DNA from: Nocardioides anomalus
GTDB lineage: Bacteria; Actinomycetota; Actinomycetes; Propionibacteriales; Nocardioidaceae
DNA: 64,000 bases
Assembly: GCF_011046535.1 (NCBI RefSeq)
Contig: NZ_CP049257.1
Location: forward strand, 4,278,001-4,342,000
Direction: 5' to 3'
In this document: piece after piece, positions 12,623 to 63,056 of the stretch
Layout: each line of letters starts with the position of its first letter
How positions within the stretch are numbered: the stretch's first letter is position 1
Position numbers and translations under genes: made by a program
The notes under the pieces: model-generated
What the model saw: the letters and a program-made list of their open reading frames with translations, nothing else
Database searches by the model: none
What the model was told of the DNA's origin: nothing

Positions 12623-12652
12623 TCCCCGCCGCGGGCGGGACCGGGAGGGGCG

Positions 12653-13075: not shown

Positions 13076-13189
13076 GAGGGAGGTCACGCCGCAGACGGTA
13101 TGCGATCTCTTCTGGCGCCGCTGGAAGGCCGAGGGATCGGGTACTCCCGGGTCCTGCCCCGCCCGCTGCGTCACCCATAGGAGTGTGCT

Positions 13190-15435
<2,246 letters not shown>

Positions 15436-45053: not shown

Positions 45054-45097
45054 GGGACGACCCTAGGCGGAGGGTCCGACAGACGCGGGGGGCGTCG

Positions 45098-45589: not shown

Positions 45590-45629
45590 GGGGTGAGCCT
45601 GCCAGAGCGGGGCAAGACCGGTGTGGACC

Positions 45630-46127
45630 TCAGCCGAACTGCTCGAGGTACGCACGACCCTCGTCGTCGAGGCGGCCGTGGGCCTCCGCGATGCGCGCCC
45701 ACCGCACCGACATCCGGGCGAAGCGGAGCGGGTTGTAGACGTCCTCCTCGCGCGCGAAGAGCCCGTCGCCGGCGTAGGTCATGATCGTCAGGTTCGACTC
45801 CTCCAGCGCCGTGCCGTCGCCGGGGTCGGGCATCAGGTTGCGCACCTCGCAGATCAGTCGCGACGTCGGCGCGTCCACCACCTGCCAGGCCAGCGGGAAG
45901 CCGGTCATCACCGAGCCCGGGAACGACGTCATGGTCCGCACCGACCAGGCCCGGATCTCCTCGCGGCCGCGGAAGGTGCCGAAGGCGTGCTCGACGTACG
46001 TCGCGTCCTCGGTGAAGCTGTCGGCGAAGCCGGTCCAGTCGCCGCTCGCGGCGTGCTGCTGGACCCGGGCGTGCAGGGCGGCGTACGCCTCGGTGATCTC
46101 CTCGGCGCGGTGCACCCCGCGATCCAA
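45630..46127 (-). CDS. Nuclear transport factor 2 (SnoaL-like) family protein
   Basis: This protein of about 165 residues has the alpha+beta cone fold of SnoaL/NTF2: AYAALHARVQQHAASGDWTGFADSFTEDATYVEHAFGTFRGREEIRAW is a classic N-terminal half. These small domains serve as isomerases, hydratases or binding subunits. TTG at 46127 and GTG at 46115 are possible starts. It lies 6 nt after the MFS stop on the same strand and is probably co-transcribed. Confidence 0.85.
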   Translation of the reverse strand: MDRGVHRAEEITEAYAALHARVQQHAASGDWTGFADSFTEDATYVEHAFGTFRGREEIRAWSVRTMTSFPGSVMTGFPLAWQVVDAPTSRLICEVRNLMPDPGDGTALEESNLTIMTYAGDGLFAREEDVYNPLRFARMSVRWARIAEAHGRLDDEGRAYLEQFG

Positions 46128-46133
46128 CCAGGC

Positions 46134-47486
46134 TCAGCCGGTGCGCCGCGAGACCAGCACCGCGCCCACGGCCAGCGCGGTGGTGAGCGTCAGCGCGGCG
46201 AGGAACGGCGCGAGGTCGGCCGAGGTGCCGACGGCAGTGAACAGCAGCCCCGACAGCGAGATGGCGGTGGCGCCGCCGACCGCGTCGGAGATCGAGACCG
46301 CCGCGGAGTTGCCGCCCTGCTCGCGCTCGGACGAGGCGGCCAGGACGGCGGAGGTGATGCGCGGGAACATCAGGCCCATGCCGGCCCCGGCCAGCACCCA
46401 GGCCGCACCGATGAGCACGGGGCTCAGCCGCAGGGCCGCCGCGGCGAGCTCGGCGCCCACGCCCACGGCGAGGAGGGTCGAGCCGGTCCGCAGGGCGGCG
46501 GCGTGGGTGAGCCGGGAGCCCAGCCGGGCCTGGACCTCGGACGCGGCCGACCAGCCGAGCGCGCCGACGGTGAGCGTGGCGCCGGAGAGCCACGGGCGGA
46601 CGTCGTACTGCTCCTGGAGCAGGTAGGGCAGGTAGATCTCGGTGGCGAAGAACGTCGCCGCGATCACGCCGCGCAGCGCGACGACGGCGGGCAGGCCCCG
46701 GCGCAGCAGCAGGGTGCCGGCCGGCAGCAGGGGTCGTACGGCGAGCAGCACGACGACCACCGCCCCGGCGGCGACGACCGAGCCGAGGGCCGCCGAGGCC
46801 CGGCCCGCCAGGTCGAGGACCACCACCGCGCCCGCGACGACGACGGCGAGGACCAGCCGGCCGCCGGTGGCGACCGGCGTCGGCGAGGGGTCGTCGACCA
46901 TCGTGCGCAGCGCCGGCACCAGGGTGACCGCGGAGAGCAGCGCGAGGCCGACCACCCCGAGGAAGACCCAGCGCCAGCCGACGGTGTCGTTGACCACCCC
47001 GGCCAGCGTCGGGCCGACCATCGAGGGGATCACCCAGGCCGCCGCGAAGGCACCGAAGATCCGCGGGTGGTCGACCGGCGCGAAGATCCGCGCGACGGCG
47101 ACGTACACCGCGACGATGGCCGCGCCCGAGCCGAGCCCCTGCAGGAACCGCGCGGCCACGAAGAGCTCGATGTTCGGCGCCAGCCCGGCCAGCAGCAGCC
47201 CGAGCACGAAGACCAGCGTGGAGACCACCAGGGGCCGCCGCGGCCCGGTGCGGTCGGCCCACAGCCCGCCCGCGACCATGCCCACCACGCTCGCGGCCAG
47301 GGTCGCCGAGAACGCTGCTGAGAACCACGCCCGACCGTCCAGGTCCGCGCTGACCGACGGCATGATCGTGGTGACCGCGAGGGCCTCGAAGGCGGCCAGG
47401 AAGATCAGCCCGACCATGCCGATGGTCGCCGAGCGGTACGGCGCCGCGAGCAGCGGCGTGGTCGCCGGCTCCTCGGTCGCGGTCAC
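46134..47486 (-). CDS. MFS transporter
   Basis: This 450-residue membrane protein of the major facilitator superfamily has about 14 hydrophobic segments; FEALAVTTIMPSVSADLDG in TM1, the motif A-like LWADRTGPRRPLVV, and a motif C-like IPSMVGPTLAGVVND place it near DHA2-type drug or metabolite exporters. Second-half SEREQGGNSAAVSISDAVGGA is typical of this group. It is the first gene of a likely pair with the NTF2 protein; its start is 34 nt from the end of the FMO gene on the same strand. Confidence 0.9.
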   Translation of the reverse strand: MTATEEPATTPLLAAPYRSATIGMVGLIFLAAFEALAVTTIMPSVSADLDGRAWFSAAFSATLAASVVGMVAGGLWADRTGPRRPLVVSTLVFVLGLLLAGLAPNIELFVAARFLQGLGSGAAIVAVYVAVARIFAPVDHPRIFGAFAAAWVIPSMVGPTLAGVVNDTVGWRWVFLGVVGLALLSAVTLVPALRTMVDDPSPTPVATGGRLVLAVVVAGAVVVLDLAGRASAALGSVVAAGAVVVVLLAVRPLLPAGTLLLRRGLPAVVALRGVIAATFFATEIYLPYLLQEQYDVRPWLSGATLTVGALGWSAASEVQARLGSRLTHAAALRTGSTLLAVGVGAELAAAALRLSPVLIGAAWVLAGAGMGLMFPRITSAVLAASSEREQGGNSAAVSISDAVGGATAISLSGLLFTAVGTSADLAPFLAALTLTTALAVGAVLVSRRTG

Positions 47487-47519
47487 CTCGCCACGGTAGG
47501 ACGTGGACCGCGGTGGAGC

Positions 47520-49349
47520 TCAAGCCAGGTGGTGCACCTCCTGCTTGCCGTACACCGGCGTCGCGATCCCCTCGTGCCGCGCCTTGAGCTGGAGCGCGAG
47601 GTAGAGCGAGTAGTGCCGCGACTGGTGCAGGTTGCCGCCGTGGAACCACAGGCTCTCGACCTGGGTCGGCTTCCACATGTTGCGCTGCTCGCCCTCCCAC
47701 GGTCCGGGGTCCTTGGTGGTGTCCGAGCCGAGCCCCCACACCTTGCCGACCCGGTCGGCGACCTCCTGCGAGATCAGGTCGGCGGCCCAGCCGTTCATCG
47801 AGCCGTAGCCGGTCGCGTAGACGACCAGGTCCGCGGGCAGCTCGGTGCCGTCGTCGAGCACCACCGAGTCCTCGGTCAGGTGGGTGACCTGGCCGTGCAC
47901 CAGCTTCACGTCGCCGTTGGCCACCAGGTCGGCGGCACCCACGTCGATGTAGTAGCCGGAGCCGCGGCGCAGGTACTTCATGAACAACCCCGAGCCGTCG
48001 TCGCCCCAGTCGTGCCAGAAGCCGGACGCCTCGAGCCGCTCGTAGAAGTCCTTGTCCTTCTCCGCCATCGCCTCGTACGCCGGGATCTGGAACTCGTGCA
48101 GGATCCGGTACGGCAGCGAGGCGAAGATCAGGTCGGCCTTCTCGGTCGTCACTCCGGCCTCGAGCGCACGCTCGGAGTAGAGGTCGCCGAGGCCGTACTC
48201 CATGAGCGAGTCCGACTTCACGATGTGCGTCGAGGACCGCTGCACCATCGTCACGTCGGCGCCGTGCTCCCACAGCGCCCCGCAGATGTCGAAGGCCGAG
48301 TTGTTCGAGCCGATGACGACGCACCTCTTGCCGGCGTACGCGTCGGGGCCGGGGTGCTGCGAGGAGTGGTGCTGGTCGCCTCGGAAGGCGTCCTGGCCGG
48401 GCAGCGTCGGGATGTTCGGCTTGCCGGACATGCCGGTGGCGAGCACCAGCTGCTGCGGACGGAGGGTGAGCGGCTGGCCCTCGCGCTCCACCTCGACGGT
48501 CCACTCCCCGGTCTCCTCCGAGTACGTCGCGGAGGTGGCGACGGTGGAGGACCAGTACGGCACCTCCATCGTGGTGACGTAGGACTCGAGCCAGTCGCCG
48601 ATCTTGTCCTTGGGCGCGAAGACCGGCCAGTTGTCGGGGAACTTGAGGTAGGGCAGGTGGTCGTACCAGACCGGGTCGTGCAGGCACAGCGACTTGTAGC
48701 GGTTGCGCCACTGGTCGCCGGGGCGCGGGTGCTTGTCGATGACCAGGGCCGGTACGTCGAGCTGGCGCAGCCGGGAGCCGAGCGCGATGCCGCCCTGACC
48801 GCCGCCGACCACCAGCACGTACGGCTGGGTGGTCGAGCCCAGCGACTCCGCCTCCTCCTGGCGCCGCTCCTTCCAGGTCTGCCGGTCACGGTCCGCGCCG
48901 TGCTGGGCGCCCATCGGCCGCCTCGTGCCGCGCGGCTCCTCGTGGCCCTTGAGCTCCTGGAGCGAGGTGAGGAAGGTCCAGGCCCTGTCCCGGCCGTCCT
49001 CGCTGACCAGCCGGGCCAGCCCGACGCCGCGGCCGACCGCGGTGTCGAAGCGGAACCACGCGGTGACGACACCGTCCTCCTCGGTGGCCGACTCGGTGAG
49101 GGCGAAGCCGCTCGGGTCGGTGGCCTCGAGGGTCTGGGTGAGCAGGTCGGCGACGCCGCCGGGGTCCTCGACGGTCTTGAGGTTCCAGGTGAAGGAGACC
49201 AGGTCGCGCCAGAAGCTGGTCGCGGCGAACAGGCTGGACGCCCGGTCCACGTCGCGCGCACGGAGGGCGTCCTCGAAGGCCGCGAACCAGGCCGTGGCCC
49301 GGTCGTCGGCGGTGGTCGCGGCGCTGGGCCGCTCCTCGGTCTGGGTCAT
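47520..49349 (-). CDS. Flavin-containing monooxygenase with N-terminal NTF2-like domain
   Basis: This protein has 609 residues. Residues about 15-140 form a SnoaL/NTF2-like domain (WFAAFEDALRARDVDRASSLFA and SFWRDLVSFTWNLKT). The FAD motif VLVVGGGQGGIALGSRL lies near residue 180, the NADPH motif VVIGSNNSAFDICGALW near 350, and the FMO-type sequence LVVYATGYGSMN near 515. It should oxygenate a soft nucleophile or carbonyl compound using NAD(P)H and O2. ATG 49349 is used. It is divergent from a GAF-domain regulator, which likely controls it. Confidence 0.9.
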   Translation of the reverse strand: MTQTEERPSAATTADDRATAWFAAFEDALRARDVDRASSLFAATSFWRDLVSFTWNLKTVEDPGGVADLLTQTLEATDPSGFALTESATEEDGVVTAWFRFDTAVGRGVGLARLVSEDGRDRAWTFLTSLQELKGHEEPRGTRRPMGAQHGADRDRQTWKERRQEEAESLGSTTQPYVLVVGGGQGGIALGSRLRQLDVPALVIDKHPRPGDQWRNRYKSLCLHDPVWYDHLPYLKFPDNWPVFAPKDKIGDWLESYVTTMEVPYWSSTVATSATYSEETGEWTVEVEREGQPLTLRPQQLVLATGMSGKPNIPTLPGQDAFRGDQHHSSQHPGPDAYAGKRCVVIGSNNSAFDICGALWEHGADVTMVQRSSTHIVKSDSLMEYGLGDLYSERALEAGVTTEKADLIFASLPYRILHEFQIPAYEAMAEKDKDFYERLEASGFWHDWGDDGSGLFMKYLRRGSGYYIDVGAADLVANGDVKLVHGQVTHLTEDSVVLDDGTELPADLVVYATGYGSMNGWAADLISQEVADRVGKVWGLGSDTTKDPGPWEGEQRNMWKPTQVESLWFHGGNLHQSRHYSLYLALQLKARHEGIATPVYGKQEVHHLA

Positions 49350-49387
49350 GGCGTCAGCAGACGCCTCCGGGGTCGGGCGAGGACAGG

Positions 49388-49402
49388 GTTGCATTGAGTT
49401 GC
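49388..49402. promoter_or_regulatory. GTTGC direct repeat between FMO and GAF regulator
   Basis: Two gttgc copies start 10 bp apart (49388 and 49398), one helical turn, in the 78-nt divergent region. A regulator bound to one face of the DNA would see such spacing. It is assigned only from repetition and position; no consensus for this regulator family was used. Confidence 0.4.
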
Positions 49403-49427
49403 GACGTGGCCGGCGTCACACTGGGTC

Positions 49428-50591
49428 ATGCCCTCCTTCGGCGCGGTCGCGCCGGGCACCGACCTGTCGCAGCACGCGCGCGAGCTGGTGCGCATCCACG
49501 ACGCGGTGCTCTCCGGCGCGCGGCCACCGGAGCGGCCGCGGGCCCTGGTCGCCCGCTCCTGGGCCCGGGTCATGGGGCTGGGCCTGGCCGCCGACCGGGT
49601 CAACCAGCGCCGGCCGCTGCCCACCGCCGAGCTCGAGCGCCGCCGTCGTACGTCGCGGCTCTCGCTGGTCGTCGACGAGCTGCGCCGGGTCCTGACCAGC
49701 GTCGCGGACGCCTCGATGTTCCTGGTCGTGGTGACCGACGCCGACGGCGTGGTGCTGTGGCGCGAGGGCTCGGCGCGGGTGCAGCGGACCGCGGACCGGC
49801 TCGGCTTCCTCGAGGGCATGGACTGGACCGAGCAGGTCGTCGGCACCAACGCGATCGGCACCGCGCTGGCCGAGGCGGCGCCGGTGCAGCTGTTCTCGGC
49901 CGAGCACTTCGAGGCGCAGCAGCACCCGTGGTACTGCACGGCCGCGCCGGTCCACGACCCGCGCGACGGCACGCTGCTCGGCGTGGTCGACGTGAGCGGT
50001 CCCGCGCTGACCCTGCACCCGGCCATCGGCGCGCTCGTGGAGAGCGCCGTCCGGCTGGCCGAGGGCGCGCTGTGGCGCCAGCACCAGGAGGGGCTCGAGG
50101 CGCTGCGCCGCTCGACCGAGTCCGTGGTCAGCACGACGTCCGGGCCGCTGCTCGTCGTCGACGACCACGGGTGGGTGGCCCACCGCACCGGGGTCGCCGT
50201 CCGCGACCGGATCGACGTGCCCCAGGCCGACCGGCCCGTCGCGGTCCCCGGCCTCGGGCTCTGCCTGCCCGAGCGGCTCGGCGCCGGGTGGCTGGTGCGT
50301 CCGCACGACCGGGCCACCACCATCCACGCCACGCTGACCGGCACCGTGCTCGAGGTGCACGCCGACGGCGGCGCGTGGCGGGCGGTGCTGACCCCCCGGC
50401 ACGCCCAGATCCTGCGACTGCTGGCCACGGGGCCGATGACCGCGGCCGTGCTCAGCACCCGGCTGTTCGGCGACGACGCCCACGTGGTCACCGCGCGGGC
50501 CGAGGTCTCGCGGCTGCGACGCGTGGTCGGGGCCCTGGTGGCGACCGGTCCCTACCGGCTCGCGGACGGGGTGCTGCTCACTCCTCGCTGA
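49428..50591 (+). CDS. GAF domain-containing transcriptional regulator (AcoR-like N-terminus, no AAA+ domain)
   Basis: This protein has 387 residues. A helical lead (LVARSWARVMGLGLAADRVNQ) precedes a GAF domain (FLVVVTDADGVVLWREG and TEQVVGTNAIGTALAEAAPVQLFSAEHF, typical of AcoR-type sensors). A middle region and a C-terminal winged helix (TPRHAQILRLLATGPMTAAVLSTRLFG, EVSRLRRVVG) follow. AcoR-like proteins usually carry a sigma-54 AAA+ module here, which is missing; this is the actinobacterial type that pairs with monooxygenases. Its 3' end overlaps the convergent VWA gene by 14 nt. Confidence 0.88.
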   Translation: MPSFGAVAPGTDLSQHARELVRIHDAVLSGARPPERPRALVARSWARVMGLGLAADRVNQRRPLPTAELERRRRTSRLSLVVDELRRVLTSVADASMFLVVVTDADGVVLWREGSARVQRTADRLGFLEGMDWTEQVVGTNAIGTALAEAAPVQLFSAEHFEAQQHPWYCTAAPVHDPRDGTLLGVVDVSGPALTLHPAIGALVESAVRLAEGALWRQHQEGLEALRRSTESVVSTTSGPLLVVDDHGWVAHRTGVAVRDRIDVPQADRPVAVPGLGLCLPERLGAGWLVRPHDRATTIHATLTGTVLEVHADGGAWRAVLTPRHAQILRLLATGPMTAAVLSTRLFGDDAHVVTARAEVSRLRRVVGALVATGPYRLADGVLLTPR

Positions 50592-51744
50592 GCGGCGCCG
50601 CCGTGACCACGTCGTTCGCGGCCGCCCACTGGCCGAGGTCGCGGCGCTCGATGGCCGCCGCCATCAGGTCGGGGAAGAGGTCGGGGGTGCAGGCGAACGC
50701 CGGCACGCCGATGCCGGCCAGTGCGGCGGCGTGCTCCACGTCGTACGACGGCGCACCGGAGTCGCTCAGCGCCAGCAGCGCCACCATGGTCGCGCCGGAG
50801 CCCACGACCTCGGCCGCTCGCCGCAGCATCTCCTCGGCGATCCCGCCCTCGTAGAGGTCGCTGATGAGCACGAAGACGGTGTCGACCGGGTCGCGGACCA
50901 GCCCCTGGCAATAGGCGATGGCGCGGTTGATGTCGGTGCCGCCGCCGAGCTGGACGCCGAAGAGCACGTCGACCGGGTCGTCGACCTCGTCGGTGAGGTC
51001 GACGACCTCGGTGTCGAAGAGGACCAGGCTGGTCTCGACCGAGCGCAGGGAGGCCAGGACCGCCCCGAAGACGCTGGAGTAGACGACCGACTCCGCCATC
51101 GACCCGGACTGGTCGACGCAGAGGATGACGTGTCGCTCGACCCGCGTCGTGCGCCGGGCGTGGCCGACGAGCCGCTCGGGCACGACCGTGCGGTGCTCGG
51201 GCAGGTAGTGCTTGAGGTTGGCCGCGATGGTCCGGCCCCAGTCGATGTCGGCCGCGCGCGGTCGGCGGGTGCGTGCGGCGCGGTTGAGCGCACCGGTCAC
51301 GGCCTGGACCGTCTCGGCCCGCAGCCGCTCCTCGAGCTGGTCGGTGACCGTGCGGACGACGGCACGAGCGGTGGCGCGGCTGGCCTCGGGGATGGCGTGG
51401 TTGAGCCCGACCAGCGTGGTGACCATGCCGATGTCGGGCTGGACCGCCTCCATCAGCTCGGGCTCGAGCAGCAGCTGGTGCAGCCCGAGCCGGTCCATGG
51501 CGTCGGCCTGCATGACCTGGACCACCGAGGACGGGAAGTAGGTGCGGATGTCGCCCAGCCACCGCGCCACCCGCGGCGCGCTCGTGCCCATGCCGCCGCG
51601 CCGGTCGCCGTCGTAGAGCTCCGACAGCGCGCGGTCGCGCTCGAGGTCCTCGGCCTCGAGCCCGCCGCCGACGCCGGTGCCGTCGGCGTCCTCACCGCCC
51701 AGCACCAGCCGCCAGCGGGTGAGCCGGTCCCGGTCCTCAGCCAC
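50578..51744 (-). CDS. VWA domain-containing protein (CoxE/YehP-like)
   Basis: This 388-residue cytosolic protein has a helical N-terminal half and a C-terminal von Willebrand A domain with a complete MIDAS: ILCVDQSGSMAESV (DxSxS), GGTDINRAIAY (Thr) and ISDLYEGG (Asp). Proteins of this kind are the adaptor partners of MoxR-family AAA+ ATPases, as CbbO or NorD and ViaA are. It is the last gene of a five-gene operon; GTG 51744 overlaps the DUF5682 stop by 8 nt. Confidence 0.9.
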   Translation of the reverse strand: MAEDRDRLTRWRLVLGGEDADGTGVGGGLEAEDLERDRALSELYDGDRRGGMGTSAPRVARWLGDIRTYFPSSVVQVMQADAMDRLGLHQLLLEPELMEAVQPDIGMVTTLVGLNHAIPEASRATARAVVRTVTDQLEERLRAETVQAVTGALNRAARTRRPRAADIDWGRTIAANLKHYLPEHRTVVPERLVGHARRTTRVERHVILCVDQSGSMAESVVYSSVFGAVLASLRSVETSLVLFDTEVVDLTDEVDDPVDVLFGVQLGGGTDINRAIAYCQGLVRDPVDTVFVLISDLYEGGIAEEMLRRAAEVVGSGATMVALLALSDSGAPSYDVEHAAALAGIGVPAFACTPDLFPDLMAAAIERRDLGQWAAANDVVTAAPLSEE

Positions 51745-53932
51745 GGGTCAGTCCGATCAGCTCGGCCACCCGGCGTACGGCGGGCAGCGCGCGCTCGACG
51801 TCCCACTCGGCCGCTGCGGTGAGCGGCGCGGGGCCGCCCTCGCCGAGCTGGCGCAGGCGGGTGCCGAGCCGGCGCCGCTCGGCCACCGCGAAGCGCGCGA
51901 AGGTCCGGCGCAGCAGCGGGAGCAGGTCCTCGAAGGAGTCCTCGGCCACCGTGGTCACCCACTCGTCCACGATCCGCAGCAGCTCCGGATCGTGCAGCAG
52001 CAGCACCGCGTCGCCCTCGAGGAAGCCGTCCAGCCACGCGGCGCCGGCGATCGGCGTGGTGCCGACCGAGAGCCGCCGGCTCAGCCGCGCCGCCGCGTCC
52101 TCGGACGTGAGCACGCCGAGGTCGAGCAGGATCCGGTTCACCCGGCCGGAGACCAGGCCGTGCACGCCGTCGTCGGCGGCCACCGCGACCAGCGCCTCGC
52201 GCCAGACCGGTGGCTCGTCCTGGACCAGGCTGATGCCGCGCTGGGCCGCGTCGACGGCCGCCCGCATCCGGGTGGCCGCGTCGTCGTCCAGCGAGGCGCA
52301 GCCCGGCCGCAGGTCGACCGACGCGCGGGCCACGACCGTGTCGAGGACCTCGGCGACCCGGCCGGTGTCGGCGTCGCGCACGTCGCCGTACCTCCGCGTC
52401 CGCGCCAGTGGCTCGATGGCCTCGAGGAGCCCGACCACGTCCTGCTGGCGGGCCGTCGCGGCGGCGAGCGCGGTGACCACCTCGTCCAGGGCCTCGGGCA
52501 GGTCGGCCAGGAAGCACTGCTCGACGAGCGCGCCGAGGGCGTCGAGGTCGGCGGCGTCGCGGGCCCTCTCCGAGACCAGCGCGGTGGTCGCCGACACGAC
52601 GGTGGTGCCGTGGAGCCCGGCCTCGACCAGCGACACCGCGAACTCCGGGCGCCACTCCAGCTGCCAGCCCTCCTTGAACGTCCCGGTGGTGCGGCCGGCG
52701 TCGGCCGGCGTGCCCCACGGCACGCCGAGCAGCCGCAGCCGGTGCAGCAGCACCGAGCGGTCGCGCTGGCTCTCCTTGCGCAGGTCGAGCACCACGGTGG
52801 TCGGCGTCGGGGACGGCTTGAGCCGGAGCGAGCGCTGGAGCCGGTCCAGGTCGCGGGCCAGCGGGATCATCGGCGTCTCGTCGGGAACCGAGCCGAGCTG
52901 CTCGCCGACCACCAGCCGGCGGTCGATGAGGGCCAGCGGCACGTCGGAGCCCTCGCAGAGCACCGACCGGGTGGCGTCGGTCAGCTCGCTCAGCCCGACC
53001 GACGGGCGGCCGCGGACGGCGGCCAGGGCCTCGGCCAGCCGGACCGCCTCGACCACCGTGGCCGGTGCCGCGGGCAGCCCCTCGTCGCGCAACGCGCGGG
53101 CCACCCTGGTCAGCCAGGACGGCACGACGGCGGCTGGGTCCTGCTCCCAGGTGACGAAGAGGTGCTGGTACCAGCCCGGCGAGGTGACGCCGGCGCCGTA
53201 CCCGCTCGCCGTGGCCAGCCGGTCGGCCGTCCACGGTGCCCAGGTCACCGCGACCTTGGTGCGCGGCAGCCTGGTCAGCATCCGGTTGTCGTGGGTGGCC
53301 GGCGGGAACGCGTCGGGGTGCAGCACCGGGGCGTGGTAGGCGCCGCACACCACCGCGATCCGGGCGAACCCCTCCTTGAGCGAGGCCCGCAGCACCCGGC
53401 GCATCGCAGCCTCGCGGCGCTGGTTCTCGGTGTCGTCGTCGTCGCCGGCGCGGACCTCGGCCATCGCCTCGCGGATCATCGCGAACTGCTCGAGCGTCGA
53501 GCTGTCGCGGTGCTCGACCGCGTCCTCCCACCAGCGCTCGGGGTCGTCGTAGCCGGCCACCCGGGCCAGCGTGGCGATGGCGTCGGACCCTCGCCCCTCC
53601 GCGCGGTCGTGCTCGGCGAGCGAGTGCGCGGCGGGCAGGTCCGCGAACCGCACCGGTACGCCGCGCGCGAGGGCCCAGCGCAGGGCCACCCACTCCGGCG
53701 AGAAGACGGCCAGCGGGTAGAAGGCCGCGCGGCGGGGCGCGTCGACGGCGTACACCAGCCCGGCCACCGGCGGGACCAGGTCGGGGTGGCCGGCCAGCGG
53801 CAGCAGCGCGTCGAGCTCGGGCGCGCCCTCGATGACGACCAGGTCGGGCTCGAGCTCCGCGAGCGCGCCGGCCACGGACCGGGCCGAGCCCGGTCCGTGG
53901 TGGCGCACGCCGAGGACCTCGAGGTCGGTCAC
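51737..53932 (-). CDS. DUF5682 family protein (YehM-like, TraB/EreA-like N-terminal motifs)
   Basis: This 731-residue protein of unknown function is seen only with MoxR and VWA genes. The N-terminus reads VLGVRHHGPGSARSV, then ELEPDLVVIEGAPE; near residue 182 a REAAMRRVLRASLKEG helix leads to VVCGAYHAPVL. This order (GxxH..S, PDxVxxE, basic helix, GxxH) is that of TraB/EreA/ChaN-like proteins. The C-terminal 500 residues are helical with repeats of Arg/Leu-rich segments. No signal peptide is present. GTG start at 53932, 13 nt after the MoxR gene. Confidence 0.85.
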   Translation of the reverse strand: MTDLEVLGVRHHGPGSARSVAGALAELEPDLVVIEGAPELDALLPLAGHPDLVPPVAGLVYAVDAPRRAAFYPLAVFSPEWVALRWALARGVPVRFADLPAAHSLAEHDRAEGRGSDAIATLARVAGYDDPERWWEDAVEHRDSSTLEQFAMIREAMAEVRAGDDDDTENQRREAAMRRVLRASLKEGFARIAVVCGAYHAPVLHPDAFPPATHDNRMLTRLPRTKVAVTWAPWTADRLATASGYGAGVTSPGWYQHLFVTWEQDPAAVVPSWLTRVARALRDEGLPAAPATVVEAVRLAEALAAVRGRPSVGLSELTDATRSVLCEGSDVPLALIDRRLVVGEQLGSVPDETPMIPLARDLDRLQRSLRLKPSPTPTTVVLDLRKESQRDRSVLLHRLRLLGVPWGTPADAGRTTGTFKEGWQLEWRPEFAVSLVEAGLHGTTVVSATTALVSERARDAADLDALGALVEQCFLADLPEALDEVVTALAAATARQQDVVGLLEAIEPLARTRRYGDVRDADTGRVAEVLDTVVARASVDLRPGCASLDDDAATRMRAAVDAAQRGISLVQDEPPVWREALVAVAADDGVHGLVSGRVNRILLDLGVLTSEDAAARLSRRLSVGTTPIAGAAWLDGFLEGDAVLLLHDPELLRIVDEWVTTVAEDSFEDLLPLLRRTFARFAVAERRRLGTRLRQLGEGGPAPLTAAAEWDVERALPAVRRVAELIGLTRG

Positions 53933-53945
53933 TGCTCACCCACGG

Positions 53946-55046
53946 TCAGCCGATCTCCCGGCAGGCGCGGTAGAGGTCGGTCCACTCCGCGCGGTCCTTG
54001 ACCACGGTCTCGAGGTACTCCTGCCACACGATCCGGTCCTGGACCGGGTCCTTGACCACCGCGCCGGTCAGGGAGGCGGCCACGTCGGCCGCCCGCAGCA
54101 CGCCGTCGCCGAAGTGGGCCGCGAGGGCGACGCCGTTGGTCATCACCGAGATGGCCTCGGCGGTCGACAGCGTCGCGCTCGGCGACTTGAGCTGGGTGCG
54201 CTGGTCGGCGGTCCGGCCCGAGCGCAGCTCGCGGAAGATCGTCACCACCCGCTCGATCTCCGACAGCGCCTCGACGTCGGCGGGCAGCTGGAGCGAGCGC
54301 CCGATCGCGGCGACGCGGGTGCGCACGATCTCGACCTCCTGGTCGAGGGTGTCCGGCAGCGGCAGCACCAGCGTGTTGAACCGGCGGCGCAGCGCCGAGG
54401 AGAGGTCGTTGACGCCCTTGTCGCGGTTGTTGGCCGTGGCGATGACGTTGAACCCCTGGAGCGCCTGCACCTCGTCGTCGAGCTCGGGGATCGGCAGCGC
54501 CTTCTCGGACAGGATCGAGATGAGCGCGTCCTGGACGTCGGCGGGGATGCGGGTCAGCTCCTCGATCCGCACCACCGCACCGGCCTGCATCCCCCGCATC
54601 ACCGGGCTCGGGACCAGCGCGTCGCGGCTCGGCCCCTCGGCCAACAGCCGGGCGTAGTTCCAGCCGTAGCGCAGCGACTCCTCCGGCGTGCCCGCGGTGC
54701 CCTGGACCACGAGCGTGGAGTCGCCGGACACCGCGGCGGCCAGGTGCTCGCTCACCCAGGTCTTGGCCGTGCCGGGCACGCCCAGGAGCAGCAGCGCACG
54801 GTCGGTGGCCAGGCTGGCCACGGCGACCTCGATGAGCCGGCGCGCGCCGAGGTACTTCGGCGTGATGGTGGTGCCGTCGGGGAGCTCGCCGCCGAGGAGG
54901 TACGTCGAGACGGCCCACGGCGACAGCCGCCACCGCGGCGGCCGGGGCCGGTCGTCGGCCGCCGCGAGCGCGGCCAGCTCGGCGGCGTACTCGTCCTCGG
55001 CGTGGGCGCGGAGCAGATCCGTGGGCAGGTCGGGCGTGACGGTCAT
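53946..55046 (-). CDS. MoxR family AAA+ ATPase (YehL-like)
   Basis: This 366-residue AAA+ protein has Walker A LLLLGVPGTAKTWVSEHL near residue 90, the Walker B-like VVRIEELTRIPADVQDALISILSEK with Glu-Glu in place of the usual Asp-Glu, sensor 1 FNVIATANNRDKGVNDLSSALRRRF with an Arg finger, and a helical C-terminal lid. MoxR ATPases remodel protein complexes together with a VWA partner, encoded two genes downstream. ATG 55046 overlaps the DUF5691 stop (ATGA). Confidence 0.93.
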   Translation of the reverse strand: MTVTPDLPTDLLRAHAEDEYAAELAALAAADDRPRPPRWRLSPWAVSTYLLGGELPDGTTITPKYLGARRLIEVAVASLATDRALLLLGVPGTAKTWVSEHLAAAVSGDSTLVVQGTAGTPEESLRYGWNYARLLAEGPSRDALVPSPVMRGMQAGAVVRIEELTRIPADVQDALISILSEKALPIPELDDEVQALQGFNVIATANNRDKGVNDLSSALRRRFNTLVLPLPDTLDQEVEIVRTRVAAIGRSLQLPADVEALSEIERVVTIFRELRSGRTADQRTQLKSPSATLSTAEAISVMTNGVALAAHFGDGVLRAADVAASLTGAVVKDPVQDRIVWQEYLETVVKDRAEWTDLYRACREIG

Positions 55047-56425
55047 CGGAAGGCCTCCGGGATCTCGGTGACGAGGGTGAGGTACTGGATCACGCGGCTG
55101 ACCCGGTCGCGGGCGCCGGGGTCGTCGAGCGTGCGGGCCCACGCCTCGAGGGCCGGGCGGGCGAGCGGGTCGAGCCCGGTGGCCAGGCGGGTGCCGAGCT
55201 GGCCCAGGAGGAGCGCCGGCTGCCGGTCCGAGCCGAGCCGCTGGAGCACCGCACGGCTGAAGACGGGCCCCCACGGCGCGGGGACCGCGTTGACCACCAC
55301 GACGACCTGCTGCGGCGACGTCGCCCGGGCCAGCTGGCTCGCCGCGACCGCGTCGCGCTGCTCGGGCGGGACGAGCGCGACCAGGTCGGGGTGCCAGACG
55401 TCCTCGACCAGGGCGGCCGCCCAGGTGGTGTCGCGGCGGGCCAGCACGGCCTCGGCGATGCCGACCTTGGCGTCCTGGCTGGCCAGCCGGCGCCACGCGC
55501 TCGGCTCGCCCCAGACGTCGAGGGGCGCGCCGGCGGCCAGCCGCTGGAGCCACCAGCCCCGGACCGAGCCGACGCGCTTGGGTCGGACCAGCCCGTCGCG
55601 CACGCCCGCGGGATCGGGATCACCCGGCAGCTCGACGTCGACGGTCCTGCGGAGCAGGCCGCCGCTCGTGATGAGCGGCCGCAGGCGCGCGGCCATCCGC
55701 GCGGCCCGCGCCGAGCCGGGCAGCGCGTCGAGCAGGCCCGCGGCGAGCTCGCGGACCCGCGCGGACCGGTCGTCGAGCGCGCGCTCCAGGAGCGGCTCGT
55801 CCTCGGGAGCGACGACCGGCCGGAGCCGGTCGAGCAGCTCGGCCCGGCCGCCGGCGGTGGCCCGGTCCCAGGTCTCGGCCAGGAGCGCGCGGACGTCACC
55901 GCCGTCGGCCACCGGCTGCTCCTCCTCGGGCAGCCACGCCCAGACCGGGTTGGCCGCGGCCAGCCAGGCGCCGCGCTGGTCGGCCACGCGGCGGGTGCCG
56001 GGGCGGAGGTCGGTCCGGCCGCTGGCCAGGTCGAGCAGCTCGGGCAGCAGGTGGTGCGGCAGGCGGGCGCCGGCCACGTCGGCCGCCTCCAGCCACCGCC
56101 GGACCAGCTCGGGGGCCAGGTGCGGCCCGACCGGCGACTGGCGGACCAACAGCTCGAGCAGCTGCACCGCGCGGGCGGGTGCCGCAGGCCGGTCGTCGGG
56201 CGCGGCCGGGTCGACGGCCTCCGGCTCCCCCGGTCGCACGCCGGCGCGGCGCAGCGCGCTGCCCAGGGCGGCGGCGTCGAGCAGCGCGACCTCACGGGGC
56301 GCGTCGGGACGACCCGCTCCGAGCGCGGCGGGCAGGGCCGGGACCGGGCGGCGCGCCGTGCCGATGAGCGCCGCGGCGGACACCTCCTCCCACCACGAGC
56401 CCACCCCCTCGACGCGCTCGCTCAC
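55043..56425 (-). CDS. DUF5691 family protein
   Basis: This 460-residue all-helical protein has a Trp-rich opening (GSWWEEVSAAALIGTARRPVP) and Leu/Ala/Arg repeats that look like HEAT-type pairs (LEALDDRSARVRELAAGLLDALPGS). VGSVRGWWLQRLAAGAPLDVWGEPSAWRRL and WAAALVEDVWHPDLVALVPPEQRDAV are conserved-looking blocks. The function is unknown; relatives are linked to SWIM and MoxR genes. GTG 56425 overlaps the SWIM gene stop. Confidence 0.85.
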   Translation of the reverse strand: MSERVEGVGSWWEEVSAAALIGTARRPVPALPAALGAGRPDAPREVALLDAAALGSALRRAGVRPGEPEAVDPAAPDDRPAAPARAVQLLELLVRQSPVGPHLAPELVRRWLEAADVAGARLPHHLLPELLDLASGRTDLRPGTRRVADQRGAWLAAANPVWAWLPEEEQPVADGGDVRALLAETWDRATAGGRAELLDRLRPVVAPEDEPLLERALDDRSARVRELAAGLLDALPGSARAARMAARLRPLITSGGLLRRTVDVELPGDPDPAGVRDGLVRPKRVGSVRGWWLQRLAAGAPLDVWGEPSAWRRLASQDAKVGIAEAVLARRDTTWAAALVEDVWHPDLVALVPPEQRDAVAASQLARATSPQQVVVVVNAVPAPWGPVFSRAVLQRLGSDRQPALLLGQLGTRLATGLDPLARPALEAWARTLDDPGARDRVSRVIQYLTLVTEIPEAFR

Positions 56426-57687
56426 ACCGCCACCAGCCCGGTGTCGGTGCCCACGCTCAGCACCCGGAAGCCGGTCCGCTCCAGCTCGCCGACCAGCGTG
56501 GTGGGCCGGCCGCCGGTCAGGGCCAGCGCGGCCCACGGGGTCGCGTCGGCCAGCAGCGGGACGGCGGCACCGGCGGCGTCCACGACCTGGCCCGGCAGCA
56601 CGGCGGCCTCGAGCACGACGGGCACCCGCCCGCCCCACGCGTTGTCGGCTACGGTCGCGGCCAGGGCGTCCAGCCCGTCGGCGAGGCTGCCGCCGGCCGG
56701 CAGCGCGGCCGGCGTCTCCCGGACCACCGGCTCGTCCACGACCAGCGCGCGCCGCGGGCGGCTGCCGGGGTAGAGCGCGAGCGTGGCCTCCAGCGTCGAG
56801 CCCGCGAGGTGGGCGATGGGCAGCGGGTTGCCGCCGGCCGCGAAGTCCAGCAGCTGCACGACCTCGCCGCTCGCCTCGCCGCGCAGCCAGGTGCGCTGCT
56901 GGAGCAGGCGTCCGTCGTCGGTGCGGTGCGCGCCGAGCACCAGCCAGGCGTCCGTCAGCGTCTCGCCGGCCCGGACGTCCTCGGAGGCCTGCGGCCAACC
57001 GACGTACGCGCGGAGGTCGGCGCGGGTGCGCTCGTCGAGGTCGTCCCACCGCTCCCAGGAGCGGACCGCCGACCACCAGCGCCCCAGCTCGCTGAGCAGG
57101 TGGTCGGCCCAGTCCTCGCGCCGGCTCACCTCCGAGCCCATGGTCCGGACCCGGTCGGCCAGCCCGGGCAGCTGCGCGTCGACCAGCCGGGCCGCGGCGG
57201 AGTCCCACCAGCCCCACGGCTGGCGTCGCGCCTGGACCGTTCCGCTGCGCACCAGGTCGGCCAGCCAGAGCGAGAAGTCACCGATCCCGGCGCTCATCAG
57301 TGCGAACCGCTCGGCCTGCCGCCTCGCCCGCGCCTCGGGGTCGACGGGCTTGGTGGTCCGCGCCGGCCGCTCGGCCGCGGGCTCGGCGAAGGGCGGCGGG
57401 TCGCCGGCGCCGATCTCACCGTGCCCGGACACCCAGCGCAGCAGCAGGGCCAGCGCGTGCTTGCACGGGAACTTCCGGCTCGGGCAGCTGCAGCGGTACG
57501 CCGGCCCGGTGAGGTCGATGCTGACCTGGTAGGGCTGCCGGCCGGAGCCCTGGCACTTGCCCCACACCAGGGTCTCGCTGCTGCCGGTGTCCGACCACGG
57601 CCCCGGCACGGCCAGCCGGTGGGCAGCCTTGAGCGAGGCCGCGTCGGGCGCGGCCTTCTCGACCGACGCGAGGTTCCACCGGGGCAT
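56422..57687 (-). CDS. SWIM zinc finger protein (YehQ-like)
   Basis: This 421-residue cytosolic protein carries the SWIM motif YRCSCPSRKFPCKHALALLL near residues 62-80 (CxC-x6-CxH), a zinc fold that binds DNA or proteins. KCQGSGRQPYQVSIDLTGPA leads into it. The rest is a Trp-rich helical domain and beta strands (WLVLGAHRTDDGRLLQQRTWL). It is the first gene of the five-gene operon; ATG 57687 has GGAG five nt upstream. Confidence 0.9.
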   Translation of the reverse strand: MPRWNLASVEKAAPDAASLKAAHRLAVPGPWSDTGSSETLVWGKCQGSGRQPYQVSIDLTGPAYRCSCPSRKFPCKHALALLLRWVSGHGEIGAGDPPPFAEPAAERPARTTKPVDPEARARRQAERFALMSAGIGDFSLWLADLVRSGTVQARRQPWGWWDSAAARLVDAQLPGLADRVRTMGSEVSRREDWADHLLSELGRWWSAVRSWERWDDLDERTRADLRAYVGWPQASEDVRAGETLTDAWLVLGAHRTDDGRLLQQRTWLRGEASGEVVQLLDFAAGGNPLPIAHLAGSTLEATLALYPGSRPRRALVVDEPVVRETPAALPAGGSLADGLDALAATVADNAWGGRVPVVLEAAVLPGQVVDAAGAAVPLLADATPWAALALTGGRPTTLVGELERTGFRVLSVGTDTGLVAV

Positions 57688-57759
57688 GGTCGCTCCATCA
57701 TCCTCGACCGCTCCGACAGCGGGCGCCCACCGCCGGGGTGCTTCTGCCACCATGCCGTC

Positions 57760-58593
57760 GTGGGCACGGGGGCGCTGGTGGTCTTCGTCGTCGCGGTCTC
57801 GCTCGAGGGTGCGGCGTGCGTGGTCCTGACCGTGCTGTGGCTGCGGGGCCGACGACGTCAGCGCGTGCTCGAGGGCGACCTGGCCACGGCCCTGGAGGGC
57901 ACCGGCCGCAGGCCGCGCCCGCGCCGACTGGTCCCGACGCCGGACGAGGCGGTCAAGGCGGTCTGGGAGACCGTGGACCGGGTCCGCGAGCAGGGACTCG
58001 GCGGCGCGCTCCGCAGCTCGATCGACGACCTGGCCGGCTGGGCCCAGGTCGAGCGCCCGGCGCTGGTGCAGCTGGCCGGCCCCGACGGCAGCGTGGCGAT
58101 CCTGTTCTCCGACATCGAGGGCTCGACCGAGCTCAACGAGCGGCTCGGCGACCGGGAGTGGGTGCGCCTGCTGGCCCGGCACGACGCGGCCGTGCGCTCG
58201 GCGATCGAGCGGTTCGACGGCCACGTGGTCAAGACCCAGGGCGACGGCTTCATGGCCGCGTTCGCCGCTCCCGAGCAGGCCGTGCGCAGCGCCGTCGCCG
58301 TGCAGCGCGCCTTCGAGCGCGGCCGGACCAAGGGCCCGAACCCCGTGCTCGTCCGCATCGGCATCCACCACGGCGACGTGGTGCACCGCGACAACGACAT
58401 CTTCGGCCGCAACGTCGCCCACGCCGCCCGCGTCGCCGCCCTGGCCGACGGCGGCGAGATCCTCCTCAGCGGCGCCGTCGCCGACGCCGTGGCCGACTGT
58501 GACGACCTCCCGCTCGCCGAGCCCCGCGAGGTCCGGCTCAAGGGGCTGACCGGGGAGCACCAGGTGGTCGCCGTCGAGTGGTCGCGACCCTGA
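57760..58593 (+). CDS. Class III adenylate/guanylate cyclase with an N-terminal membrane anchor
   Basis: This 277-residue protein starts with one hydrophobic span (GALVVFVVAVSLEGAACVVLTVLWL), then a basic stretch (RGRRRQR), a short linker, and the cyclase domain from about residue 105: AILFSDIEGSTELNERLGDREW (first metal Asp), GHVVKTQGDGFMAAF (Lys and second Asp), RIGIHHGDVVHRDNDIFGRNVAHAARVAALADGGEILLS. The Lys and the Asp before it set ATP or GTP choice; ATP is more usual here. No HAMP, so signalling may come from dimerisation. GTG 57760; divergent from the SWIM gene. Confidence 0.93.
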   Translation: MGTGALVVFVVAVSLEGAACVVLTVLWLRGRRRQRVLEGDLATALEGTGRRPRPRRLVPTPDEAVKAVWETVDRVREQGLGGALRSSIDDLAGWAQVERPALVQLAGPDGSVAILFSDIEGSTELNERLGDREWVRLLARHDAAVRSAIERFDGHVVKTQGDGFMAAFAAPEQAVRSAVAVQRAFERGRTKGPNPVLVRIGIHHGDVVHRDNDIFGRNVAHAARVAALADGGEILLSGAVADAVADCDDLPLAEPREVRLKGLTGEHQVVAVEWSRP

Positions 58594-58652
58594 CGCCTCG
58601 CCGTCCGTTTCCCGCCAGCACCGGCAGGGGCCGTGGGACCACCCTGACGACC

Positions 58653-59117
58653 ATGACCTACCGCATCACCGGGGCCGACCCGGACGCCCTTGCCGACCTC
58701 CTGCACCGCTGCGTCGACCACGCCGGCAACCGGGTGGCGCCGTTCGAGGACGACGATGGCGGCTGGGCCCTGCGCTGCTGCCTCACCGACTCGGTCCCGG
58801 GCGACCAGATCGCGGTCGTGGCGTTCTCGCCGTTCCCCTGGCGCAGTGCGTACGCCGAGACCGGGCCGGTCGTCGTGCACGTCGCGGGCTGCCCCGGCCC
58901 ACCGGACGGCACGCTGCCGCCGCAGTTCCACGAGCGTCGCCAGGTGCTGCGCGTCTACGGTCACGACCGCCGGCAGGCCTACGACCTGCACCGCGTGGTC
59001 GAGCCGGGCGGGCTCGCCGAAGCGCTCGAGGCGCTGGTCGCCGACGAACGGGTCGAGTGCGTGCACGCCCGCAACGTGGTCGCGGGCTGCTGGAGCTTCG
59101 CCGCCACCGCGGCGTAG
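58653..59117 (+). CDS. DUF1203 domain-containing protein
   Basis: This 154-residue protein has YRITGADPDALADLLHRCVDHAGNRVAPFEDDDGGWALRCCLTDSVPGDQIAVVAFSPFPW, the typical opening of the family, and YAETGPVVVHVAGC. Function unknown. Cys and His residues in the second half could bind metal. ATG 58653. Terminal part ends close to the convergent ESX-like gene. Confidence 0.85.
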   Translation: MTYRITGADPDALADLLHRCVDHAGNRVAPFEDDDGGWALRCCLTDSVPGDQIAVVAFSPFPWRSAYAETGPVVVHVAGCPGPPDGTLPPQFHERRQVLRVYGHDRRQAYDLHRVVEPGGLAEALEALVADERVECVHARNVVAGCWSFAATAA

Positions 59118-59126
59118 CCCCGAGCC

Positions 59127-60497
59127 TCAGTCCAGCACGCCCGGTGCGGCGTCCTCGTCGTCGACCCAGTCCTTGCCGTCGTCGAACAGGTCGCGCTCCT
59201 CGCCGCGGCGCTCGTCGTCCTTTCGACCGCGACCGCGACCCGCACCGGCGCCAGCGCCAGCGCCGCGCGCGCCGGCCGCGCCCCGAGCGCCTCGCCCGGC
59301 CGCGCTCCCGCGACCGCCACGACCCGTGCCGCGACCGGAGCCGCGTCCGCCGGTGCCACGACCGCCGGTGCCGCCGGCACCGGCCCCGCGCGCGCCGCCG
59401 CCCGCGCCGCCACCGCGGCCCAGGACCGAGCCGGCACCCGCGCCGCGCGCACCGGTGCTGCCGATGCCGCGCACGCCGGCCGCGGAGATCCCGCGTCCAC
59501 CGGCCGAGCCGGGCACGAGCCCACCCAGGCCGGGCTGCAGCCCACCGGTGAGACCACCGGCCAGGCCGGCCGCGGCCGCGCCGCCGAGCGCGCCGCCGGC
59601 AGCGGCACCGAGGCCACCCACGGCCCCGGCCCCTCCGCCGGGCGCGGAGACACCCGGGTTGGCGATGGTCGGGGTAGGCGAGAGCGGACCACCGGGGCCG
59701 GCCGGCGTGCCGTACGGCGGGTGGCCGGTCGGCGGCGTCGACGGGTCGACCGGGGGCTGCGTCGGGTTGGGCAGCGTCGGGTTCGGCGGCTGCGGAGGCT
59801 GGGGCGGCTGGGGCGGGACCGGCGGCTCCGGCGGGATCGGGGGCACGGGCGGCTGCGGCTTCGGCGGCTTGGGCGGGTGCGGCTCGCCCGGGTTGCCGCC
59901 GGGACCGGTCGGGCCCACCGGGGGCTGGGTGCCCGTGGGCGTGCTCGGCGTGCCGGGGTTGGTCGGCGGCGGCGGGGGCGGCGGCTCGCCGTGGATGCTC
60001 TGGAAGACCTCGGCCCGCTTCTGGTGGTGGTTGTCCAGGGTCGTGATGGCGTGGTCCGCCGCGGTCTCGCTGTCGGCGTAGTGGTCCCAGAACAACTTGT
60101 TGTCGGTCTGGAACTTGCTCTGCGCCTTGGCGTCACCGAGGTCCGAGGGCTGGGTCGGCGGCTGCTTGTCGGCGTGCTTGTCGAGCTCGGCGACCTGCTT
60201 CTTGGCGTGGCGCAGGTCCTCGGCGGCGTGGGTGAACGCCTCCGAGCCCTGCTTCATCTGCTCCGAGCGCTTCTGCATCTTTTGCGCCGAGTGCGTGAAC
60301 GCCTTGGACGCGGCCGAGGCCGCCTCACCGCTGAACCGGTCGTCGCTGCCGAAGGAGTGCCCCTTCGTGGCCACCTGCTCGGCGATCTTGCTGAGCAGGT
60401 CGGCGCCCTTCTTCCACTCGGTGCTGGCGTCGTCCAGGTCCTCGGGGCGCGAGTGCTGCACGTACGCCTTGAGCTGCTGGGCCTTGGGTCCGAGCAC
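59127..60497 (-). CDS. WXG100-like type VII secretion substrate with Pro-rich and Gly/Arg-rich tail
   Basis: This protein has 456 residues. The N-terminal 160 residues are helical with an ESX hairpin: STEWKKGADLL, then FSGEAASAASKAF in the place of the WxG turn, and QMKQGSEAFTHAAEDL. Next comes a Pro-rich section (PPPPPPPTNPGTPS), then Gly/Ala, then a Gly-Arg-Gly section (TGGRGTGGRGSGRGTGRGGRG), and an acidic end DDGKDWVDDEDAAPGVLD. This architecture is that of large actinobacterial ESX substrates, whose C-terminus often carries W...APG-type motifs. GTG 60497, two nt after the upstream stop; GGAGG lies 8 nt before it. Confidence 0.8.
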   Translation of the reverse strand: MLGPKAQQLKAYVQHSRPEDLDDASTEWKKGADLLSKIAEQVATKGHSFGSDDRFSGEAASAASKAFTHSAQKMQKRSEQMKQGSEAFTHAAEDLRHAKKQVAELDKHADKQPPTQPSDLGDAKAQSKFQTDNKLFWDHYADSETAADHAITTLDNHHQKRAEVFQSIHGEPPPPPPPTNPGTPSTPTGTQPPVGPTGPGGNPGEPHPPKPPKPQPPVPPIPPEPPVPPQPPQPPQPPNPTLPNPTQPPVDPSTPPTGHPPYGTPAGPGGPLSPTPTIANPGVSAPGGGAGAVGGLGAAAGGALGGAAAAGLAGGLTGGLQPGLGGLVPGSAGGRGISAAGVRGIGSTGARGAGAGSVLGRGGGAGGGARGAGAGGTGGRGTGGRGSGRGTGRGGRGSAAGRGARGAAGARGAGAGAGAGRGRGRKDDERRGEERDLFDDGKDWVDDEDAAPGVLD

Positions 60498-60498
60498 G

Positions 60499-60921
60499 TC
60501 AGCTCCCTCCTCCGTGGCCACCGTGTCCGTGGCTGTGCGGGTGTGCGGCCGCGAAGGAGACCGGGATCATCGAGTCGGCCTTCTTGGTCTGGGCGATGAA
60601 GTCCGCCTCGGCCGCGTCGTCGGTGTCCTTCGCGTCGACGTACAGCTGGTGGATGATCTGCCCGTAGCCGTCGAGACCGCTCGCCATGTCCTTGAGCGCC
60701 TCGACCACGTGCGCACGGGCCTTGCCGGCGTCGCTGGCCAGCTGGACGCTCCCAGGAGTGCCACCGAACGCGGTGTGCGAGACGGTGTTGGGCTTCTGGT
60801 CGGTGAGCTGGTCCGCGCTGTCGGTCAGGAACGACTTCAGCTGCGCAGCCAGGCTCTCGGAGATGCCGAACTCGACGAGGCGGTCCACCATCGCCGCGAT
60901 GTCGCCGAACAAGTTGGCCAT
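60499..60921 (-). CDS. Small ESX-like helical protein with a His/Gly-rich C-terminus
   Basis: This 140-residue helical protein (ANLFGDIAAMVDRLVEFGISESLAAQLKSFL; SVQLASDAGKARAHVVEALKDMASGLDGYGQIIHQLYVDAKDTDDAAEADF) has a predicted WXG100-type hairpin arrangement. The tail HPHSHGHGGHGGGS could bind Zn or Ni. It is upstream of and co-transcribed with the large ESX-like gene; the pair resembles an EsxA/PPE pair. No eccC, mycosin or eccD genes are in the window. Confidence 0.75.
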   Translation of the reverse strand: MANLFGDIAAMVDRLVEFGISESLAAQLKSFLTDSADQLTDQKPNTVSHTAFGGTPGSVQLASDAGKARAHVVEALKDMASGLDGYGQIIHQLYVDAKDTDDAAEADFIAQTKKADSMIPVSFAAAHPHSHGHGGHGGGS

Positions 60922-61100
60922 TGCTGTGTGCTCCCGAGAGGTGTGCGAAGTGCCGGGCAAAGACTCTGCTACCCGGCCTCCGCGGACGCAAAACCCGAGA
61001 GGCCGTGCAACCAGGAGGTGGTCAGGACCGTCGGGTTACGGTGAGGACGCGTTCGCGGTCCCAGGCTGACCGCTGTGCCCGCGTGTGACAGGAGGGACCC

Positions 61101-61736: not shown

Positions 61737-61740
61737 CCGC

Positions 61741-63033: not shown

Positions 63034-63056
63034 GCTCCGCAACCTACGCTCGCGGG

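Follow-up and report, generated by a model that had tools for sequence, protein, structure and literature searches.

Do five overlapping genes of the actinomycete Nocardioides anomalus encode a single molecular machine, and what might such a machine do? The genes lie in a 64,000-nucleotide (nt) stretch, hereafter the window (contig NZ_CP049257.1, assembly GCF_011046535.1, positions 4,278,001 to 4,342,000 of the forward strand), of a genome that is a single contig of 5.12 Mb. They run on the minus strand from 57687 to 50578 in the order SWIM, DUF5691, MoxR, DUF5682 and VWA, and the successive junctions are a 4-nt overlap, a second 4-nt overlap, a 13-nt gap and an 8-nt overlap. An open reading frame (ORF) map together with Pfam reproduced exactly the layout given in the original prediction, which had been made from the DNA letters alone and had regarded the genes as one operon; their short same-strand overlaps and the retention of their order across loci agree with this. 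The five genes look like parts of one ATP-powered protein machine. They represent a real and very widely conserved MoxR/VWA system of the YehL branch, a variant without a match in the literature searched, and their linkage is far beyond chance. The N-terminal domain of the DUF5682 protein belongs, as judged from its predicted structure and profile, to the TIKI/TraB/ChaN/EreA superfamily, an assignment that is new here.

A predicted TIKI/TraB-fold domain in DUF5682

The DUF5682 protein (YehM family, 731 amino acids (aa), 51737-53932, minus strand; PF18934, E 7.6e-242) comprises an N-terminal TIKI/TraB-fold domain and a long helical domain. The former, residues 1-250 (53183-53932), was placed in the superfamily by profile comparison (hhalign), by six invariant TraB positions and by fold searches with a confident AlphaFold2 (AF2) model (ma3c9bcddd021). 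The alpha/beta core fold common to the superfamily was found in the predicted model of this region and in its fold matches, and ChaN was among the top structural matches of the fold searches. The closest solved fold was that of a Tetrahymena complex IV subunit (PDB 7w5z_E, 8b6h_DQ, 8bqs_DQ). When the whole DUF5682 model was used as the query instead, helical repeats swamped the fold matches, and a PDB sequence search with TraB matched only designed and other helical proteins.

The elements GxxH, E, R and GxxH are present in this order in residues 1-250, with variants in outliers. They were followed in an alignment of 49 DUF5682 rows (A3), four of which (L020, L021, L022 and L027) are cut before motif 1, leaving 45. 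In motif 1, the first GxxH (G8-V-R-H11-H12, 53897-53911), residues G8, H11 and H12 occur in all 45 rows that reach it; the proline of L021 lies outside this count because its row is cut before the motif. Motif 2, E35 (53828-53830), and motif 3, R173-E174-x-x-M177 (53402-53416), are each present in 49 of 49 rows, as are G197 and H200 of the second GxxH (G197-A-Y-H200, 53333-53344). In a divergent DUF5682 branch with the gene order VWA-MoxR-DUF5682 (L150, L151, L153) the first glycine of GxxH is replaced by proline.

DUF5682 thus shares its predicted fold and the conserved GxxH...E...R...GxxH set with TIKI/TraB/PrgY, ChaN and EreA/EreC. It differs from these superfamily members in carrying a long helical domain and in occurring alongside MoxR, mostly with VWA as well. 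To our knowledge, known members of the TIKI/TraB superfamily act without partners of the MoxR/VWA type. Placing DUF5682/YehM in this superfamily names residues to mutate and chemistry to assay in a laboratory strain, and recognition of the domain makes the function of the machine testable. No paper on DUF5682 was found in the literature searched, nor any combining SWIM zinc finger, MoxR and operon, or MoxR and ChaN-like.

In animals TIKI cleaves certain Wnt proteins (PMC12329661), and its active-site motif is 2His/2Glu (PMC6254334). Set against that motif, two histidines, E35 and E174 are conserved in DUF5682 as sequence positions, irrespective of geometry. A TIKI member that lacks the catalytic motif, PMT, is described in the same source, and the domain in DUF5682 could likewise be a dead scaffold within a machine that is a plain chaperone. 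The identity of E35, R173, E174, G197 and H200 in every row, and of G8, H11 and H12 in every row reaching them, argues against this and makes it very unlikely.

Conservation and linkage of the five genes

GTDB genomes were scanned with a DUF5682 profile, giving at least 592 matching stretches, and the best 80 loci were kept; because only the best matches were retained, this set leans to close relatives, and many of the best named DUF5682 relatives are Nocardioides. Phyla were taken from record titles, and L017 and L018, read on the wrong strand, were left out. The locus profiles were partly built from the same loci, and the map obtained by plain BLAST of the window proteins was nearly identical. 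Loci with a flank of at least 6.2 kb before and at least 2.5 kb behind DUF5682 were considered eligible (n=61).

Conserved synteny, on which the original prediction had staked itself beforehand, was found: all five genes are present in 60 of the 61 eligible loci, 53 in the order of the window and seven with the SWIM-DUF5691 pair inverted and divergent (L076, L079, L085, L092, L093, L095 and L100; Streptomyces is among them and the rest are presumably other Streptomycetaceae). In the one eligible locus that departs from this, that of the cyanobacterium Mastigocoleus (L055), DUF5682 stands by itself. Across all 80 loci the five genes occur together in 68, and 11 of the remaining 12 sit on contigs cut short on one or both sides. 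Two further cyanobacterial loci (L051 and L069, on contigs cut on one side) were considered together with Mastigocoleus; a VWA gene lies elsewhere in all three genomes and DUF5691 elsewhere in two of them, not in Mastigocoleus. The five-gene set occurs in seven phyla (Actinomycetota, Cyanobacteriota, Pseudomonadota, Verrucomicrobiota, Planctomycetota, Chloroflexota/Thermomicrobiales and Deinococcota, the last on a plasmid), so that its earlier description as an actinobacterial version was too narrow.

A second sample gave the same picture. Among 296 Actinomycetota genomes, the 18 with DUF5691 above cut-off all fall among the 21 with DUF5682 (hypergeometric P 5e-26), and the listed DUF5691 and DUF5682 places are at most 5 kb apart in each of these 18; three more genomes have DUF5691 matches below cut-off and are without DUF5682. 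Within the genus of the window, DUF5682 was found in 5 of 37 genomes, and the genes flanking the operon are themselves poorly conserved.

MoxR upstream of DUF5682 is the constant element across arrangements. In 77 of the 80 loci DUF5682 lies downstream of MoxR on the same strand; its start is 40 nt or less from the MoxR stop in 69 of these 77, and gaps of 0.3-3.1 kb occur in L070, L082, L105 and L096. All 13 additional loci examined likewise have MoxR next to DUF5682 on its upstream side, although in a five-gene set on a Deinococcus plasmid (L158) a small extra ORF (7765-8001) stands between the two. A third arrangement, VWA-MoxR-DUF5682, is found in L150, L151 and L153. Stop-start overlaps are frequent at SWIM/DUF5691 (44 of 55 unfused plus-strand loci), DUF5691/MoxR (55/66), MoxR/DUF5682 (42/77) and DUF5682/VWA (67/76), with the start nearest a 4-nt overlap being chosen where several fitted, a choice that favours overlaps. 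Mirror-tree correlations of 0.67 to 0.87, calculated without a species-tree control, were not used as support.

Gene fusions divide the system further. SWIM and DUF5691 form a single ORF at five loci (Phytohabitans L060, the planctomycete L072, Nocardia L101 and L108, and Symbioplanes L106), and DUF5682 and VWA in seven (L020, L022-L026 and L157); the machine is therefore composed of a SWIM-DUF5691 unit, MoxR and a DUF5682-VWA unit. A MoxR gene stands directly before the DUF5682-VWA fusion in L147, L148 and L157, and on an S. atratus plasmid a DUF4132 gene lies close to such a fusion.

Motor proteins and the SWIM-DUF5691 pair

The MoxR AAA+ ATPase (366 aa, 53946-55046, minus strand; AAA_5 PF07728, E 5.5e-37) is of the YehL subfamily: it is 41% identical to YehL over 349 aa, whilst three other matches in its own genome are partial and 28-34% identical. 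Its Walker A motif G89-x-P-G-T-A-K95 lies at 54762-54782, and GVPGTAK (G89, P91-K95), the acidic E162/E163, N206 and R221/R222 do not vary among 20 sequences, YehL included; the functional roles of these motifs are assumed here. The VWA_CoxE-type protein (YehP family, 388 aa, 50578-51744, minus strand; PF05762, E 5.2e-51) has a metal ion-dependent adhesion site (MIDAS), D211-x-S-x-S215 (51100-51114), which together with T270 and D296 is invariant in 20 sequences including YehP. By their sequences the two proteins retain the residues of an ATPase and of a MIDAS, in line with the MoxR-VWA partnership that had been proposed. A PDB sequence search with MoxR gave Midasin, Lon and NorQ among 10 matches, and nothing significant was found there for DUF5682, VWA, DUF5691 or SWIM.

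The first gene encodes a SWIM zinc-finger protein (421 aa, 56422-57687, minus strand; PF04434, E 1.5e-7) with the zinc motif C66-x-C68-x6-C75-x-H77 (57457-57492) in the CxCxnCxH form, and its four ligand positions C66, C68, C75 and H77 are invariant in 36 sequences (alignment A5). The DUF5691 protein (460 aa, 55043-56425, minus strand; PF18944, E 1.2e-85) scored 23.6 when set against the helical portion of DUF5682 (P 0.057), with shuffles reaching at most 18.5. Kinship of DUF5691 with DUF4132 was considered and rejected (P 0.37, score 19.0, 20 shuffles up to 18.5).

Relationship to E. coli YehLMPQ and other MoxR/VWA systems

YehL represents one of seven MoxR subfamilies and one of the two MoxR ATPases of E. 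coli K-12 (PMC3893208). The E. coli yehL, yehM and yehP genes are homologues of MoxR, DUF5682 and VWA in the same order (41%, 27% and 35% identity), and yehM and yehP likewise overlap by 8 nt. The kinship with the E. coli set that had been proposed is thus upheld for these three genes and fails for YehQ, in which the SWIM finger is the only part detectably common to the window protein: the finger alone aligned (P 0.12), and a second comparison scored 31.4 (P 0.0054), whilst 20 shuffles gave no more than 27.7. The view that the E. coli set differs just by DUF5691 also had to be given up. That set is without DUF5691, its SWIM gene is of a different type and stands last rather than first, and DUF4132 and WGR genes adjoin it. 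The possibility that YehQ combines SWIM with DUF5691 was rejected, the comparisons being negative.

DUF4132 and this second SWIM type, not DUF5691, adjoin the system in E. coli, Iodobacter, Sinorhizobium, an E. coli plasmid, L149 and L152, the SWIM match being weak in L152, and WGR also adjoins in the E. coli loci. DUF4132 (PF13569) is absent from the genome of N. anomalus, in which WGR was not searched for. On an Iodobacter plasmid (L154) the YehQ-type protein is encoded as two overlapping genes (11537-13593) followed by type I restriction genes. No function for YehL was found in the literature searched, subscription papers and preprints lying outside its scope, and among papers naming two or more of yehL, yehM, yehP and yehQ none, judged by title, was on function.

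With NorQ/NorD, CbbQ/CbbO and RavA/ViaA the window system shares a MoxR ATPase and a MIDAS-containing VWA co-chaperone, and to these it adds a TIKI-fold subunit and a SWIM-DUF5691 module; among the MoxR/VWA literature matches listed, none had a SWIM domain or DUF5691, nor did DUF5691 figure in any of the DUF4132 and yehM papers listed. Its MoxR and VWA proteins score far below the curated NCBIfam equivalog cut-offs for ViaA (13.4 of 500 bits) and GvpN (35.9 of 266.8 bits). The vWA-MoxR ternary systems and a jumbo-phage MoxR/vWA-metallopeptidase pair likewise join MoxR and VWA to an extra component, sometimes a peptidase (PMC7159879, PMC7824862), and the jumbo-phage pair with its fused metallopeptidase is the closest printed idea, likened here by description only (PMC7824862).

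A proposed mechanism and the cofactor alternative

In NorQD, a finger of the VWA protein inserts into the ring pore and ATP turnover twists an arm (PMC13036017). We consider the five-gene system to be best explained as a remodelling machine driven by ATP, one that belongs to the YehL branch of the MoxR/VWA systems and contains its own enzyme, and hold this at about even confidence. As in NorQ/NorD, MoxR would form a hexameric ring that grips and turns the VWA protein, and the latter would be docked on DUF5682, whose long helical domain could act as a lever and whose TIKI-fold domain could provide the active site. The SWIM-DUF5691 pair may be an exchangeable recruitment module presenting a particular protein, perhaps one bound to nucleic acid, with SWIM-DUF4132/WGR as the recruiter in E. 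coli-type sets. ATP-driven twisting would open this client, in which the DUF5682 site would hydrolyse a peptide or ester bond. The earlier proposal that DUF5682 would process the client gains a basis in the predicted TIKI-fold domain. Were the hydrolase reading to hold, bacteria would use the twisting motor of MoxR and VWA to work an enzyme of the TIKI fold.

The more specific reading, that of a cytosolic ATP-powered TIKI-family protease machine in which a TIKI-fold hydrolase, docked to VWA and driven by a MoxR ring, is served by exchangeable targeting modules, is put forward tentatively, at somewhat less than even confidence. If true, it would add a further class of energy-dependent protein processing, unnoticed in nearly all E. 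coli.

Cofactor insertion is the principal rival. Here MoxR and VWA would act like NorQD in opening a metalloenzyme, and DUF5682 would bind or deliver a metal or cofactor in the manner of ChaN, with no peptide being cut. NorQD inserts iron (PMC13036017), the VWA protein is a VWA_CoxE family member, and ChaN, among the top structural matches of the DUF5682 N-domain, is a haem binder. Molybdenum is the obvious candidate: the E. coli locus adjoins WGR and DUF4132 genes, and molR, reported in 1990 as a molybdate-utilisation gene, is cited for WGR/DUF4132 proteins. We take molR to be the yehF-yehI gene group. A molR deletion interacts with lepA, an observation that concerns partners of the E. coli type only (PMC4245954). 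Against cofactor insertion, no molybdoenzyme or cofactor gene family recurs beside the operon among the families listed, N. anomalus itself is without DUF4132, and the conserved hydrolase-type His/Glu/Arg set suggests catalysis. We regard cofactor insertion as rather unlikely.

Genomic surroundings and possible links to stress or phage conflict

The original prediction had also raised a link to stress or to conflict with foreign DNA, and the surroundings of the operon bear on both. A 72-nt divergent intergenic region (57688-57759) separates it from a class III cyclase gene, whose start was taken as the GTG at 57760, and is probably a promoter region. Positional-GC gene calling gave identical frames throughout, except that the SWIM gene was over-extended into the cyclase gene. 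No Rfam match was found within 45000-64000 of the window.

In a machine for DNA damage or nucleic-acid stress, damaged or foreign nucleic acid would be sensed by the SWIM module, joined in E. coli-type sets by WGR/DUF4132, and proteins would be cleared from it by the ATPase and the TIKI-fold enzyme. The SWIM finger is intact, a Deinococcus plasmid carries a five-gene copy, and one WGR and one DUF4132 gene of Deinococcus, which correspond to E. coli-type partners only, are strongly upregulated on depletion of the DNA-damage repressor DdrO (PMC8533742). This reading is nonetheless unlikely: no SOS-box-like site was found in 57688-57759 and the window as a whole has 49 matches against 43 expected, DUF4132 is missing from the genome as noted above, and the list of recurrent neighbours does not contain the RecBCD-like genes that lie near the operon in the window.

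The patchy occurrence in the genus and relatives on some plasmids, one of them adjoining type I restriction genes, might point to an anti-phage or conflict role of the kind attributed to the vWA-MoxR ternary systems. Several results speak against it. PADLOC gave a best match of E 0.005, to IetA, for the five proteins, and the window MoxR scores 21 bits against a bpMoxR (PF20030) cut-off of 27 and so is not of that type; no defence context was seen. No variable effector recurred among the 25 neighbour clusters listed, where no family reached more than 10 of the 80 loci. A flank survey took the 137 genes nearest the operon in 34 loci (up to three on one side and two on the other, excluding products above 700 aa and loci with an inverted block); no PADLOC family matched more than three of these proteins among the 25 of 36 matching families listed, and metabolic enzymes and transporters make up most of the 25 most frequent of 138 Pfam families. 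In E. coli, moreover, 5162 of 5426 genomes carry 80% or more of the length of yehL-Q. An anti-phage or conflict role is highly improbable on these grounds; the link to foreign DNA, like a defence island, drew little support from PADLOC and the neighbour families.

Relatives were found in 36 of 72,556 plasmid records, several of them chromosome-sized, and in 1 of 50,697 phage records. The sole phage record with a DUF5682 relative (hit H31, MT835988.1) is from human faeces and unannotated, the relative being 30% identical over 93% of the query.

A sixth operon member was sought and rejected on the same neighbour clusters. The larger of these represent chromosome neighbours in Streptomycetaceae, two being a CoA-ligase/ATP-grasp family (succinyl-CoA ligase-like) and a PcrA/UvrD helicase; three clusters of eight loci each, of MFS, AMP-binding and ABC-transporter families, extend across genera. 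In the window, three long overlapping minus-strand genes (36650-45053) probably encode RecBCD, because the two scanned for domains carry UvrD-helicase and Exonuc_V_gamma/RecC_C and are RecB- and RecC-like. A convergent GAF-domain gene lies downstream of the operon. Directly upstream and divergent is the class III adenylate/guanylate cyclase gene (57760-58593, plus strand), whose closest counterpart elsewhere in the genus, across 59 genomes, is 69% identical, the next being 52-56%.

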